Shown in pieces: positions 21,914 to 27,620 of a DNA stretch of 34,623 nucleotides (position 1 is its first letter; each line of letters starts with the position of its first letter). The notes below the pieces were generated by a model. That model was not told where the DNA came from, did no database searches, and saw only the letters and a list, made by a program, of their open reading frames with translations. This DNA comes from an uncultured Verrucomicrobiota bacterium (GTDB taxonomy: Bacteria > Verrucomicrobiota > Verrucomicrobiia > Palsa-1439), in NCBI GenBank assembly GCA_903825435.1, contig CAIKAP010000073.1, positions 1 through 34,623 of the forward strand, in the 5' to 3' direction. The translations under genes and the position numbers were made by a program.

Positions 21914-22681
21914 TCAAGCCTTCTCGGTGCCCCAGCGCCGGTGAAGGAATCGTTCCCACGGAGAGAACAGGATTTTGTCGGCCAACAACCCGATGACGAT
22001 GATCACCAGCATGATACCGGCGACCTGGTCCATCGCTTGCAACTCGCGCCCGTAGTGCAACAGGTGTCCGAGACCGAAGCCGGTCAAGATCGTCACGTAA
22101 ATCTCTGCCGCCATCAACGAGCGCCAGGCGAACGCCCAGCCTTGTTTCATGCCGCTGATGATGAACGGCAGCGACGCTGGCACGATGACACGGCACCAAG
22201 TGTGCAGGCCGCGCGAGCCCATCGTGTGAGCTGCGCGCACGTAGATCGGCGGCACCGTTCGCACTCCGTTGTCGGTGGCGATCAGCACCGACCAGAGCGT
22301 GCCCATAGTGACGACGAACAGCATCGCCGATTCCGTTTGCCCAAACCACAGCAACGCCAGCGGTACCCAACAGACGCTTGGCAACGTCTGGAATCCGAGC
22401 GCGATGACACCTAGCGTGTCGGACATCACCTTGAAACGGGCCGTCAACAGTCCCAGCGGCAAACCAACGAGCAGCCCCAATCCGTAGCCGATCAACAGTC
22501 GACGGATTGTGACTAGGGTGGCGCGCTCCAGCGTGCCGTCGGCTAGTGCCTGCCCGATGTAACGCACCACGCTGAACGGAGACGGCACTAATACTGGCGA
22601 CCAGACGCCGGCACGTACCAGCGCTTCCCAAATCGCGATCATGCAGGCGAAGAAGATGACGACGCCGAGGAGGCGTTTCAT
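21914..22681 (-). CDS. ABC permease, sulfonate/taurine/nitrate type (SsuC/TauC/NrtB-like)
   Basis: 255 aa, BPD-type inner membrane permease with about six TM helices. The EAA-type cytoplasmic loop (IYVRAAHTMGSRGLHTWCRVIVPASLPFIISGMKQG family pattern) is clear around residues 150-185, as is the SsuC/TauC ending 'GLLADKILFSPWERFLHRRW'. It forms the channel of the importer with the ATPase at 22678-23469, whose stop it overlaps by four bases (ATGA). Substrate class cannot be fixed from the permease alone; aliphatic sulfonate, taurine, nitrate or thiamine-precursor analogues use the same family. Confidence 0.87.
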   Translation of the reverse strand: MKRLLGVVIFFACMIAIWEALVRAGVWSPVLVPSPFSVVRYIGQALADGTLERATLVTIRRLLIGYGLGLLVGLPLGLLTARFKVMSDTLGVIALGFQTLPSVCWVPLALLWFGQTESAMLFVVTMGTLWSVLIATDNGVRTVPPIYVRAAHTMGSRGLHTWCRVIVPASLPFIISGMKQGWAFAWRSLMAAEIYVTILTGFGLGHLLHYGRELQAMDQVAGIMLVIIVIGLLADKILFSPWERFLHRRWGTEKA

Positions 22682-23469
22682 TCGGCGACCTCTTCCAGGT
22701 CGGGGTGTAAGTGTCGTTTGAGGGCGCGGGTGATTTTGGTAGCGTGTTGGGCGAGGTCCACACTGTTAATGTCGCGCGGGCGTGGCAACTCCACAGTAAA
22801 CTGTTCTTGAACGCGACCGGGGTTTGGCGAGAACAGCACCACACGGTCGCCAAGGCAGGCGGCTTCGCGGACGTTGTGCGTGACGAACACGATGGTTCGC
22901 TTTCGTTGTTGCCAGATGCGTTGGAGATCGCCATAGAGCTGCTCTCGCGTCAACGCATCCAGCGCCGCGAACGGCTCGTCCATCAGTAGTACGCGCGGGT
23001 TCGGCGCGAGGCATCGGGCGAGAGCGACGCGTTGTTTCATGCCGCCGGACAGTTCGTGGATGCTGGCGTACATGAACCGGTCCAAGCCGACCAGTTCGAG
23101 GTAGTACGTCGCCACCTCGCGGCGCTCCTTGTTACTGAGGTGTGGCTTAAGCTTCAGGCCGAACATTACGTTGTCGAACGCATCCAGCCACGGGAACAGC
23201 GCGGGCTCCTGGAACATCACCATCCGGTCACTTCCAGGGCCGGTCACCGACTTGCCGTTGGCGAGGATCTGTCCTCCATCGGGCAAGTCCAACCCGGCGA
23301 TCAGGTTCAATAGCGTCGTCTTGCCGCAGCCCGACGGGCCAACCAAACAGATGAACTCGCCCTCGCGCACGGTGAGCGAGACGCTGTCGAGAGCGTGAAT
23401 CTCGCCCTTGCGGGTGCGAAAGCGTTTCGTCACGCTCTCAACGACCAGTTTTGGGATTTCTTCTGCCAT
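22678..23469 (-). CDS. ABC ATPase, sulfonate/taurine/nitrate type (SsuB/TauB-like)
   Basis: 263 aa with Walker A GPSGCGKTT (44-52), Q-loop FQEPALFPW (87-94), signature LSGGMKQR (140-147), Walker B RVLLMDEP (159-166) followed by FAALDALTRE, and switch His in FVTHNVREA. FQEPALFPWLDAFDNV and LMDEPFAALDALTR are typical of the SsuB/TauB/NrtD group. It energises import together with the permease downstream and the binding protein upstream (3-bp gap). The overlap with the permease gene indicates one transcript. Confidence 0.9.
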   Translation of the reverse strand: MAEEIPKLVVESVTKRFRTRKGEIHALDSVSLTVREGEFICLVGPSGCGKTTLLNLIAGLDLPDGGQILANGKSVTGPGSDRMVMFQEPALFPWLDAFDNVMFGLKLKPHLSNKERREVATYYLELVGLDRFMYASIHELSGGMKQRVALARCLAPNPRVLLMDEPFAALDALTREQLYGDLQRIWQQRKRTIVFVTHNVREAACLGDRVVLFSPNPGRVQEQFTVELPRPRDINSVDLAQHATKITRALKRHLHPDLEEVAE

Positions 23470-23472
23470 GGC

Positions 23473-24555
23473 TCAGGGTAATTCCGCCAAACCTTTTTCG
23501 CGCAACACTTCGTTGAGCAGGCGCAAATCGTAAATGCGCGACAGGTCCGGTTTATCGCGCAGGAACCCTATGCGGTGCGCGTCACCGGCTGACTTCAACA
23601 GGGATGCGCGAACCGGGTCGTGCGTCAACTCCAGCCGTTTCCACGCGCCGTCCAGCGTCGACGGCGGCAGCGCCTTCGTCGTCTCCGCCTTGATCTCGTC
23701 GTTCAGAATCCGTTTTGCCTCGTCGGGGTGCGCCGCGATCCACTGCGTCAACTCCACGTGCGCCGCGATCCACTTCTTTAACAGCGCAGGCTTCTCCTTC
23801 AACAACCGCGCGCTGCTGACCAGATGTGTCGTCACGTATTTACCACCCGTGCCCGGCCAGAGAGCGCTCTCCTCCAGATAAAGGCGCCCCCTCGCCTCCA
23901 GTTCGAGGCGCGTGACCCACGGCTCGACCGTCCACACGGCGTCGAGGTTACCCCTCTGGAACAACGTAAACTGGTCCGGGTTCGCCGTCGGCAACACCAG
24001 CGCGTCGCCACCACTCATCGTCACGTTCAGTCCCTTCGACAACAACCAAGCCCGCGCTGCCACGTCCTGCGTGTTGCCGAACTGCGGCGTCCCGATCCGT
24101 TTGCCTTTGAAGTCGGCATCGGTCTTGATGCGCCCGTCCGGCTGCACCACGAGCGCCGCGCCGCCGCTGCACGCGCCCGCGATGATGCGGACCTCGGTAC
24201 CTCGCGATTTCAGGTGGGCGTTGATCGCGGGGTTCGGGCCGACGTACGTGAGGTCGAGCGAACGGGCGAACATCGCCTCCATCGCGCTCGGCCCGGCGTT
24301 GTAGACGAACCATTGCACCTGCACGTCGGGGCCGAGCCGTTGCTCAAACCAGCCTTTGCCATGGCGTGACAAGCCATGCGCGATGAGCGCCTGAGCGTGG
24401 GTGATGTTGGGAAAATGACCGACTCGCAGCACGATTTTCTCCGCGCGACTACAGGCGCCTCCGAACAACGTCAGCGCCAGCAACGAATTACCGATGAAGC
24501 GTCGCATCCCGCTCACAGCGTAACCTTTTATCAGCCATCTGCAAAGTGTTTTCAT
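23473..24555 (-). CDS. ABC substrate-binding protein, SsuA/TauA/NMT1-like
   Basis: Periplasmic binding protein of the NMT1/SsuA family, about 360 aa. The mature part starts EKIVLRVGHFPNITHAQALI, followed by LTYVGPNPAINAHLK and IIAGACSGGAALVV, the usual ligand-cleft segments, then KRIGTPQFGNTQDVAAR and VWTVEPWVTRL. Start choice: the ATG at 24555 overlaps the stop of the preceding small frame (ATGA), the coupling style of this genome; an inner ATG at 24507 gives a more compact signal peptide (MRRFIGNSLLALTLFGGACS). The GGAC could be a weak lipobox. The adjacent methionine-enzyme remnant favours a sulfur compound as substrate (inference). Confidence 0.87.
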   Translation of the reverse strand: MKTLCRWLIKGYAVSGMRRFIGNSLLALTLFGGACSRAEKIVLRVGHFPNITHAQALIAHGLSRHGKGWFEQRLGPDVQVQWFVYNAGPSAMEAMFARSLDLTYVGPNPAINAHLKSRGTEVRIIAGACSGGAALVVQPDGRIKTDADFKGKRIGTPQFGNTQDVAARAWLLSKGLNVTMSGGDALVLPTANPDQFTLFQRGNLDAVWTVEPWVTRLELEARGRLYLEESALWPGTGGKYVTTHLVSSARLLKEKPALLKKWIAAHVELTQWIAAHPDEAKRILNDEIKAETTKALPPSTLDGAWKRLELTHDPVRASLLKSAGDAHRIGFLRDKPDLSRIYDLRLLNEVLREKGLAELP

Positions 24556-24689
24556 GAGGTTTCTAACGCGCGCTGCAATCGTTGCCACAAATCGTCCGGG
24601 TCCTCCAGCCCGACGGAAATCTGGTCAGCGTTGCTGTTCAGCACGATAGCAAATGCACTGAATACTGTGGCTAATAGTTTAGCTTTCAT
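24552..24689 (-). pseudogene. Chimeric frame: signal-peptide start fused to the C-terminus of a Cys/Met-metabolism PLP enzyme (metY/metB type)
   Basis: 45-codon frame with its own ribosome site (AGAAAGG, 4 bases before ATG). Codons 1-22 read as a signal peptide (MKAKLLATVFSAFAIVLNSN). Codons 23-45 read QISVGLEDPDDLWQRLQRAL plus three, matching the conserved last residues of O-acetylhomoserine sulfhydrylase or cystathionine gamma-synthase ('RLSVGIED-x-DDL-x-x-DL-x-x-AL'). Its stop overlaps the ATG of the binding-protein gene. The simplest reading is that a full-length enzyme gene once preceded the importer and was cut to its last 23 codons when the 24.6-26.4 kb segment arrived. The rest of the enzyme is not in this window. 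Whether the hybrid peptide is made and exported is unknown. Confidence 0.65.
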
Positions 24690-24709
24690 TTTGCCTTTCT
24701 TGAGGGGGG

Positions 24710-26131: not shown

Positions 26132-26362
26132 ATGGCGAAACCACAGAACATTGTCGGGCCGCAGATTCGCAAGCTTCGCTACCAGCAGGAATTCACACAG
26201 GAGATGCTGGCGGCGCGGTGCGCGCGTTTCGGCTGGGATCTCAGCCGAGCCACACTTTCCAAAGTCGAAGCTCAGATTCGCTGTGTAACAGATTCAGAGT
26301 TGCTCGTTATCGCCCGCGCGTTAGGCGTTCTGCTGGAAAAACTCTATCCACCGAAGAACTAA
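26132..26362 (+). CDS. XRE-family helix-turn-helix regulator
   Basis: 76-aa DNA-binding protein. The HTH lies at about 8-65: VGPQIRKLRYQQEFTQEML, then the recognition helix region LSRATLSKVEAQIR, then the TDSELLVIARALGVLLEKLY ending typical of Cro/C1-type regulators. The frame is open upstream to 25988, but the ATG at 26132, directly after an operator half-site whose GGAG may double as the ribosome site, begins the homologous part. It probably represses itself and the divergent secreted-protein gene through the paired palindromes. It converges on eboF with a gap of 4 bp. There is no toxin or phage gene beside it. Confidence 0.85.
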   Translation: MAKPQNIVGPQIRKLRYQQEFTQEMLAARCARFGWDLSRATLSKVEAQIRCVTDSELLVIARALGVLLEKLYPPKN

Positions 26363-26366
26363 TCGT

Positions 26367-27620
26367 TCACTTCGTTAGCAGCCGTAACAAAAGCGGAATA
26401 AGGTCTGTCGCCTTTGTCGATCCGGTGGGCAACGCGTAGGTAGATTTCTCGTCCGCCGCCAACACCGCCCAGCCTTCGCCGTCGTCGCCAACCCGGCCGT
26501 GGGAGCCTTTCACCAGCCCAGGGCGCGTCGCCGTCGCGGGGTGGAGCGAGCGGAGCGTGCGAGGCCAGTCTAACCACAACTCGCACGGGTCGTAACCGGG
26601 TTTGCAGTGGATGTCCACCGAGTGCGCGAAGTCCGGGGCCTTGTTCCAATCGTTCCACCAGTAGTACGCGAACCATTTGTCGCGCGGCGCGACGACCACC
26701 AGCTCGCCCGCACGCGGGTGGGCAATGGTGGTGAATTCCACGTCACCAAGCGCGGCGCGGGCAGCCTCGAAGGTGCCAGGTTTGCAGTAGATGTGCGCGA
26801 CTTGGTGGTCCACGACGGCAAAGGCGTCGCTCAACTCGAAGTCGAGATATTCGCGCCCGGCGATTTCGCGGACGCGGAGCAAGCCGGCTTGTCGGAGTGC
26901 GCGATTCGGGTAGAGCGCACCGGTGACGGGCGAGAGCGAGTATTCGGAGCAGACGATCACCGACGCTTCTTTGCCAAACTCGGCGAGGAGTTCGGCGACG
27001 ACGGCATCAATCTCGCGCAACGCCCGCGGCTGGTCCGGGCCGAGTTTCTGCGAGGAGTAGTCGAGGTGCGGCAGATAAACGAGCATCAGGTTCGGTTTGT
27101 GCCGGCGCCACGTCGCTTGCGCGGCGCGGCCAATCCACCGGCTTGATCCGATACCGGCAAGCGGGCCCCAGTAGGACTGCAATTTGAAATCTGAGATTTC
27201 AGATTTCAAATCCTCGTAGTAGCCGGGCGGTTTGGAGTAGCACCACTGGATGAGTTTGTGGTGGGTGTGAATCGGGCGCGGCGTGATGACGACCCCGGCG
27301 TTGATGTACATCGACTGTTGCCAGAAAAGGACGGCGGTCTTCTGGTTCGGCAACAGGTCCCAAATGCGCGGGCTCTGGACGAGCGAACCGGGTTGTTCCC
27401 AGAATTTCACTTCGCGGGTGTCGCGGTCGAACCAGCCGTTGCCGACGATGCCGTGTTGTTCCGGTTTTGTTCCGGTGAGCAGCGTCGCCTGCACGGAACA
27501 GGTCACGGCGGGAAAACTCGGGCGCATCGGTCGCCACGTGAACGCTGACAAGCTCGGCATCTGGCGCTGGTGGTGCGGCGCGAGTCCGACGACGTTGAGG
27601 ATGACGACGTGTTTGCTCAT
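26367..27620 (-). CDS. eboF: EboF-like alkaline phosphatase-fold phosphodiesterase/nucleotide pyrophosphatase
   Basis: 417 aa of the type I phosphodiesterase/nucleotide pyrophosphatase group. The N-terminus HVVILNVVGLAP and the nucleophile block PSFPAVTCSVQATLLTG (34-50, Thr40 the probable nucleophile) followed by EQHGIVGNGWF match the phosphodiesterase of ebo clusters as I know it from cyanobacteria. Metal ligands recur at HLDYSSQ and SEYSLS (a usual D-H-H set is partly replaced), and the C-terminus has GSHGR. A near-perfect DNA palindrome at 27182-27211 adds the residues DLKSEISDFKLQ in frame. It overlaps the eboC stop by four bases. In ebo systems the cluster aids movement of a metabolite to the periplasm; the substrate here is unknown. 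Confidence 0.8.
   Translation of the reverse strand: MSKHVVILNVVGLAPHHQRQMPSLSAFTWRPMRPSFPAVTCSVQATLLTGTKPEQHGIVGNGWFDRDTREVKFWEQPGSLVQSPRIWDLLPNQKTAVLFWQQSMYINAGVVITPRPIHTHHKLIQWCYSKPPGYYEDLKSEISDFKLQSYWGPLAGIGSSRWIGRAAQATWRRHKPNLMLVYLPHLDYSSQKLGPDQPRALREIDAVVAELLAEFGKEASVIVCSEYSLSPVTGALYPNRALRQAGLLRVREIAGREYLDFELSDAFAVVDHQVAHIYCKPGTFEAARAALGDVEFTTIAHPRAGELVVVAPRDKWFAYYWWNDWNKAPDFAHSVDIHCKPGYDPCELWLDWPRTLRSLHPATATRPGLVKGSHGRVGDDGEGWAVLAADEKSTYALPTGSTKATDLIPLLLRLLTK
27182..27211. repeat. Palindromic GATTTGAAATCTGA-type insert inside eboF
   Basis: Perfect 13-bp arms (27182-27194 and 27199-27211) around a 4-base loop, strongly A/T-rich in a G/C-rich gene. The repeated GAAATCTGA/TCAGATTTC units are typical of small interspersed palindromes. 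It is in frame and translated as part of DLKSEISDFKLQ. Confidence 0.8.

Follow-up and report, generated by a model that had tools for sequence, protein, structure and literature searches.

Layout of the locus

The 45-codon open reading frame described here lies on the minus strand of a 34,623-nucleotide stretch of DNA, called the window, from an uncultured Verrucomicrobiota bacterium, and joins a signal-peptide-like start to the tail of a Cys/Met PLP enzyme. Its translation, MKAKLLATVFSAFAIVLNSNADQISVGLEDPDDLWQRLQRALETS, divides into MKAKLLATVFSAFAIVLNSNAD-QISVGLEDPDDLWQRLQRALETS and a stop. A three-gene importer stands directly downstream, and the stop codon of a PTPDL-like gene lies 20 nt ahead of the frame. 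The features of the locus are listed in order of position.

21914..22681, minus strand: importer permease
22678..23469, minus strand: importer ATPase
23473..24507, minus strand: sulfonate-type substrate-binding protein (SsuA_fam, TIGR01728, 190 bits against a cut-off of 163.5), likely start 24507
24508..24551, minus strand: 44-nt spacer, aligning with a 43-nt spacer in the same-genus genome G001
24552..24689, minus strand: 45-codon chimaera of a signal-peptide-like start and an enzyme tail, ATG at 24689, last base of TGA at 24552
24552..24620, minus strand: remnant of a metB2-type Cys/Met PLP enzyme, last 22 codons plus stop (profile match, identity to G044 and G001, synteny with G001)
24618..24626, minus strand: breakpoint, where metB2 homology ends before codon 24 (profile and alignment with orthologues)
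24621..24689, minus strand: signal-peptide-like start MKAKLLATVFSAFAIVLNSNADQ, predicted from hydrophobicity
24694..24701, minus strand: SD-like AAGAAAGG ahead of the frame's ATG, read from the letters and scored
24710..26041, minus strand: PTPDL-like secreted/TPR protein (NF041881, 67 bits, below the cut-off of 200)
26132..26362, plus strand: small HTH_3 regulator, divergent from the PTPDL-like gene
26367..27620, minus strand: Phosphodiest-family gene, with which the second synteny block, matching G001 contig C11, begins

The enzyme tail

The C-terminal part of the frame is homologous to one subgroup of PF01053 enzymes, for which the name metB2 is used here. A profile built from 13 metB2 C-termini matched the tail at 37.7 bits (E 5.3e-11) in a six-frame search of the window; its second-best match there reached 7.5 bits (E 0.14), and the best score in 20 shuffled windows was 12.1 bits. 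By Pfam alone, the 23-residue tail matched the last 20 positions of PF01053 (362-381 of 381) weakly, at E 0.069, below the cut-off. Comparison of the whole 45-residue protein with its taxonomic family, own genome excluded, returned mainly metB2 C-termini, aligned in register, among them those of G009 (5.4e-5), G005 (0.0018), and G001 (0.011). The tail shares 17 of 19 residues with the metB2 orthologue of G044 and 10 of 19 with that of G001. The metB2 match in G044 (L151, C124:2348-3454) is reported with a single TAA in frame, which may reflect another instance of decay or the way the aligned range was set.

An earlier note, made from the letters of this DNA, had proposed a metY/metB-type gene cut to its last 23 codons. 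The truncated Cys/Met PLP-enzyme gene is borne out by the profile score, the register of the C-terminus, and the synteny described below; the homologous part comprises 22 codons (I24-S45), however, and becomes 23 only if Q23 is included. What survives is homologous to the metB2 C-terminal segment and in register with it, and the catalytic domain with the PLP-binding lysine is missing, so that, measured against the whole gene at the same place in G001, the last 22 of 441 codons are left and the active-site lysine region is gone.

The assignment to metY/metB was too narrow. The remnant shares with MetY (O-acetylhomoserine sulfhydrylase) and MetB (cystathionine gamma-synthase) the PF01053 superfamily and the C-terminal motif xSVGxED..DL...L..AL; the tail of the genome's own O-acetylhomoserine (OAH) sulfhydrylase, RLSIGIEDVADIIADLDQAL, is clearly less similar to it than the metB2 tails are. 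The full metB2 enzyme of G001 scores 201 bits against the nearest NCBIfam model, NF042918 (BesB), which has a cut-off of 800, and is therefore not BesB itself; its closest solved structures are 9aub and 9aua. On the strength of these scores, the lost enzyme is a distinct, distant BesB-like paralogue outside the usual MetY/MetB families. As a group, metB2 enzymes are distant relatives of BesB with an extra N-terminal segment, and they pass no NCBIfam equivalog among those listed. A tandem metB1-metB2 pair of PF01053 genes recurs across Verrucomicrobiota (loci L184, L185, L187, L188, L189, L190, and L040).

Synteny in relatives

The window genome (G000) was compared with one genome of the same genus, G001, whose contig C8 carries, in order, cysK, metB1 (383 aa), metB2 (441 aa), and the binding protein, ATPase, and permease of the importer. 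An intact orthologue of the remnant thus stands at the syntenic place, as the earlier note had suggested might be found in a sister genome. The distance from the enzyme stop to the importer ATG is 43 nt in G001 and 44 nt in the window genome (ATG at 24507), and the two spacers can be aligned. The position of the remnant before the importer also fits its placement as metB2 when set against G001 and G007, although metB1 has been lost in the window genome.

The gene ahead of the importer is an Rrf2-type regulator in most other family members examined and in many more distant Verrucomicrobiota. In G007, metB2 lies ahead of such a regulator (Pfam PF02082), and in G029 metB2 is followed by an Rrf2-type gene; in G013 and G028, which belong to another family, about 8-9 kb separate metB1 and metB2 from the importer. 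The direct contact of metB2 with the importer thus seems to be peculiar to the genus shared by the window genome and G001, and the order metB2-regulator-importer looks older, with a polarity drawn from few genomes. A search for an Rrf2 neighbour in G000 and G001, run without a positive control, returned none, and the two Rrf2 genes of G000 do not match the importer-linked regulator. Elsewhere, a stop-start overlap (ATGA or TAATG) between the Rrf2 gene and the importer is frequent (L064, L069, L073, L082, and L105), which suggests a sulfur-responsive importer unit. Literature searches yielded nothing on point.

The gene loss extends to the whole genome. No further metB2 was found in G000 at E<=1e-10, metB1 is absent throughout, and the missing N-terminal part of the enzyme, which the earlier note had proposed to seek elsewhere in the genome, was found nowhere in it. 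The only full-length PF01053 gene of G000, on contig C97, is classed by TIGR01326 as an OAH sulfhydrylase (672 bits, cut-off 495) and is 33% identical to metB1. It has cysK directly ahead of it, and because both genes are present, homocysteine synthesis by this route should remain.

The junction and the signal-peptide-like start

Identity with the aligned orthologues begins at I24, which places the breakpoint at about 24618-24626. Homology to metB2 stops abruptly there and the flanks map to different places in G001: the importer block matches contig C8, and the window from 26367 to about 32001 matches contig C11, with DNA identity to G001 of up to 86% in the contig beyond the PTPDL-like gene. 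The intervening 1.75 kb (24621 to about 26366), which holds the signal-like start, the PTPDL-like gene, and the HTH_3 regulator, is absent at both matching G001 loci. From 24.6 to 26.3 kb the GC content falls to about 0.48-0.55, compared with 0.60-0.65 on either side. A rearrangement or insertion would be expected to produce such a stretch, and by comparison of the sequences the junction near 24,620, already suspected as a site of recombination, is a rearrangement breakpoint. Only short, chance-like pairs were seen in a search for junction repeats of a mobile element or recombination site, no integrase or transposase was seen among the window's reading frames, and no second copy of the junction DNA was found in the window genome. 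Scanning for promoters and terminators yielded no more than shuffled sequence did.

The first 22 residues of the frame have a basic start and a strongly hydrophobic core, with a best 12-residue Kyte-Doolittle mean of 2.5. In trials with random upstream sequence of the local composition, a signal-like start arose in frame at a frequency of about 0.0004-0.0007, and together with an SD-like motif at about 0.00006; the criteria were chosen after the sequence had been seen, so the true chance figures are higher. The signal-like start, predicted from hydrophobicity and the SD-like motif AAGAAAGG, looks real, in agreement with the earlier proposal of a secretory start joined in frame with its own ribosome site, and it likely derives from a genuine exported-protein gene. 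Its source gene was not found in the genome itself, in the taxonomic family, or in the loci compared. A tandem PTPDL-like paralogue was considered as the source because PTPDL-like signal peptides also end in AD; that likeness is suggestive only, and the candidate was set aside for lack of homology.

The importer start

The stop of the 45-codon frame overlaps, as ATGA at 24555-24552, an ATG in frame with the importer protein. This ATG has no SD and would put 16 extra residues ahead of the importer's signal sequence MRRFIGNSLLALTLFGGACS; a start at 24507 gives that sequence a length that fits relatives, and at the aligned place G001 has TAA and no ATG. On these features 24507 is the likelier start. 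The overlap had been read as preserved ancient operon coupling. The letters do hold an ATGA, yet its ATG, at 24555, is unlikely to be where the importer truly begins, and the coupling does not hold up: enzyme and importer stand 43 nt apart in G001, and in most relatives examined it is the Rrf2 regulator that is coupled to the importer, with genuine ATGA overlaps between the two in several of them. Since G001 lacks the ATG, 24507 fits relatives, and true overlaps involve Rrf2, the ATGA of the window genome most likely arose by chance and is not an inherited link.

Origin of the frame

The 45-codon frame is very probably what is left of a gene cut at a rearrangement breakpoint. A deletion or translocation would have taken away metB1 and most of metB2, and the same event may by chance have fused the beginning of another exported-protein gene, including its ribosome site and the codons for its signal peptide, in frame to the 22 codons that remained. 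Any protein translated from the frame would comprise a signal peptide of 22 residues and some 23 mature residues, for which no function is expected, and the intact importer genes downstream would now probably be read from the promoter of the PTPDL-like gene or from an unseen local one. Remnants of bacterial deletions and rearrangements are likewise short in-frame 3′ ends of genes that are intact in a close relative, beside unaltered downstream genes; what differs here is the in-frame join to a signal-peptide-like start that carries an SD-like site of its own.

That join invites the reading that the fused frame encodes a genuinely new small protein for export, or serves as a leader cistron promoting importer translation through the stop-start ATGA. 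The rarity by chance of the in-frame start with an SD-like site (about 0.00006) and the ATGA at 24552-24555 speak for it, as does a tail without visible decay, judged from the open frame, the SD-like site, the strong signal-like start, and the 17/19 match to G044. Set against these, the ATG of the overlap lacks an SD, is absent in G001, and adds 16 residues before MRRFIGNSLLALTLFGGACS, and the 45-codon frame occurs in no second genome searched, so this reading is improbable. Still less credit is given to its combined form, in which the rearrangement made a new small exported protein from a signal peptide and a sulfur-metabolism enzyme tail that was then kept as the translated leader of the sulfonate importer.

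A junction of this kind could also arise if metagenome assembly had joined two unrelated stretches, since G000 is an assembly of 242 contigs with 3% contamination, the two sides of the junction match different G001 contigs, and GC content steps there. Yet the PTPDL-like family is present in 11 of 11 genomes examined from the same taxonomic family, beyond it the contig and G001 share up to 86% of their DNA letters, and both metB1 and metB2 are missing genome-wide, as a true deletion predicts; a chimaera is accordingly quite unlikely. Chance resemblance of the tail, which might be entertained for some 20 residues whose Pfam match alone falls below the cut-off, is scarcely credible beside the family-profile E-value and the same strand, place, and spacer before the same importer in G001, a synteny that refutes it.

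Implications

As a gene remnant, the frame is most likely without function and is an ordinary, though well documented, trace of gene loss. Through it, the disappearance of a sulfur amino-acid gene pair can be assigned to one lineage, and an importer operon is seen to survive the replacement of its upstream neighbours. It also serves as a warning for annotation, as gene calling may set the start of the importer 16 codons too far upstream.
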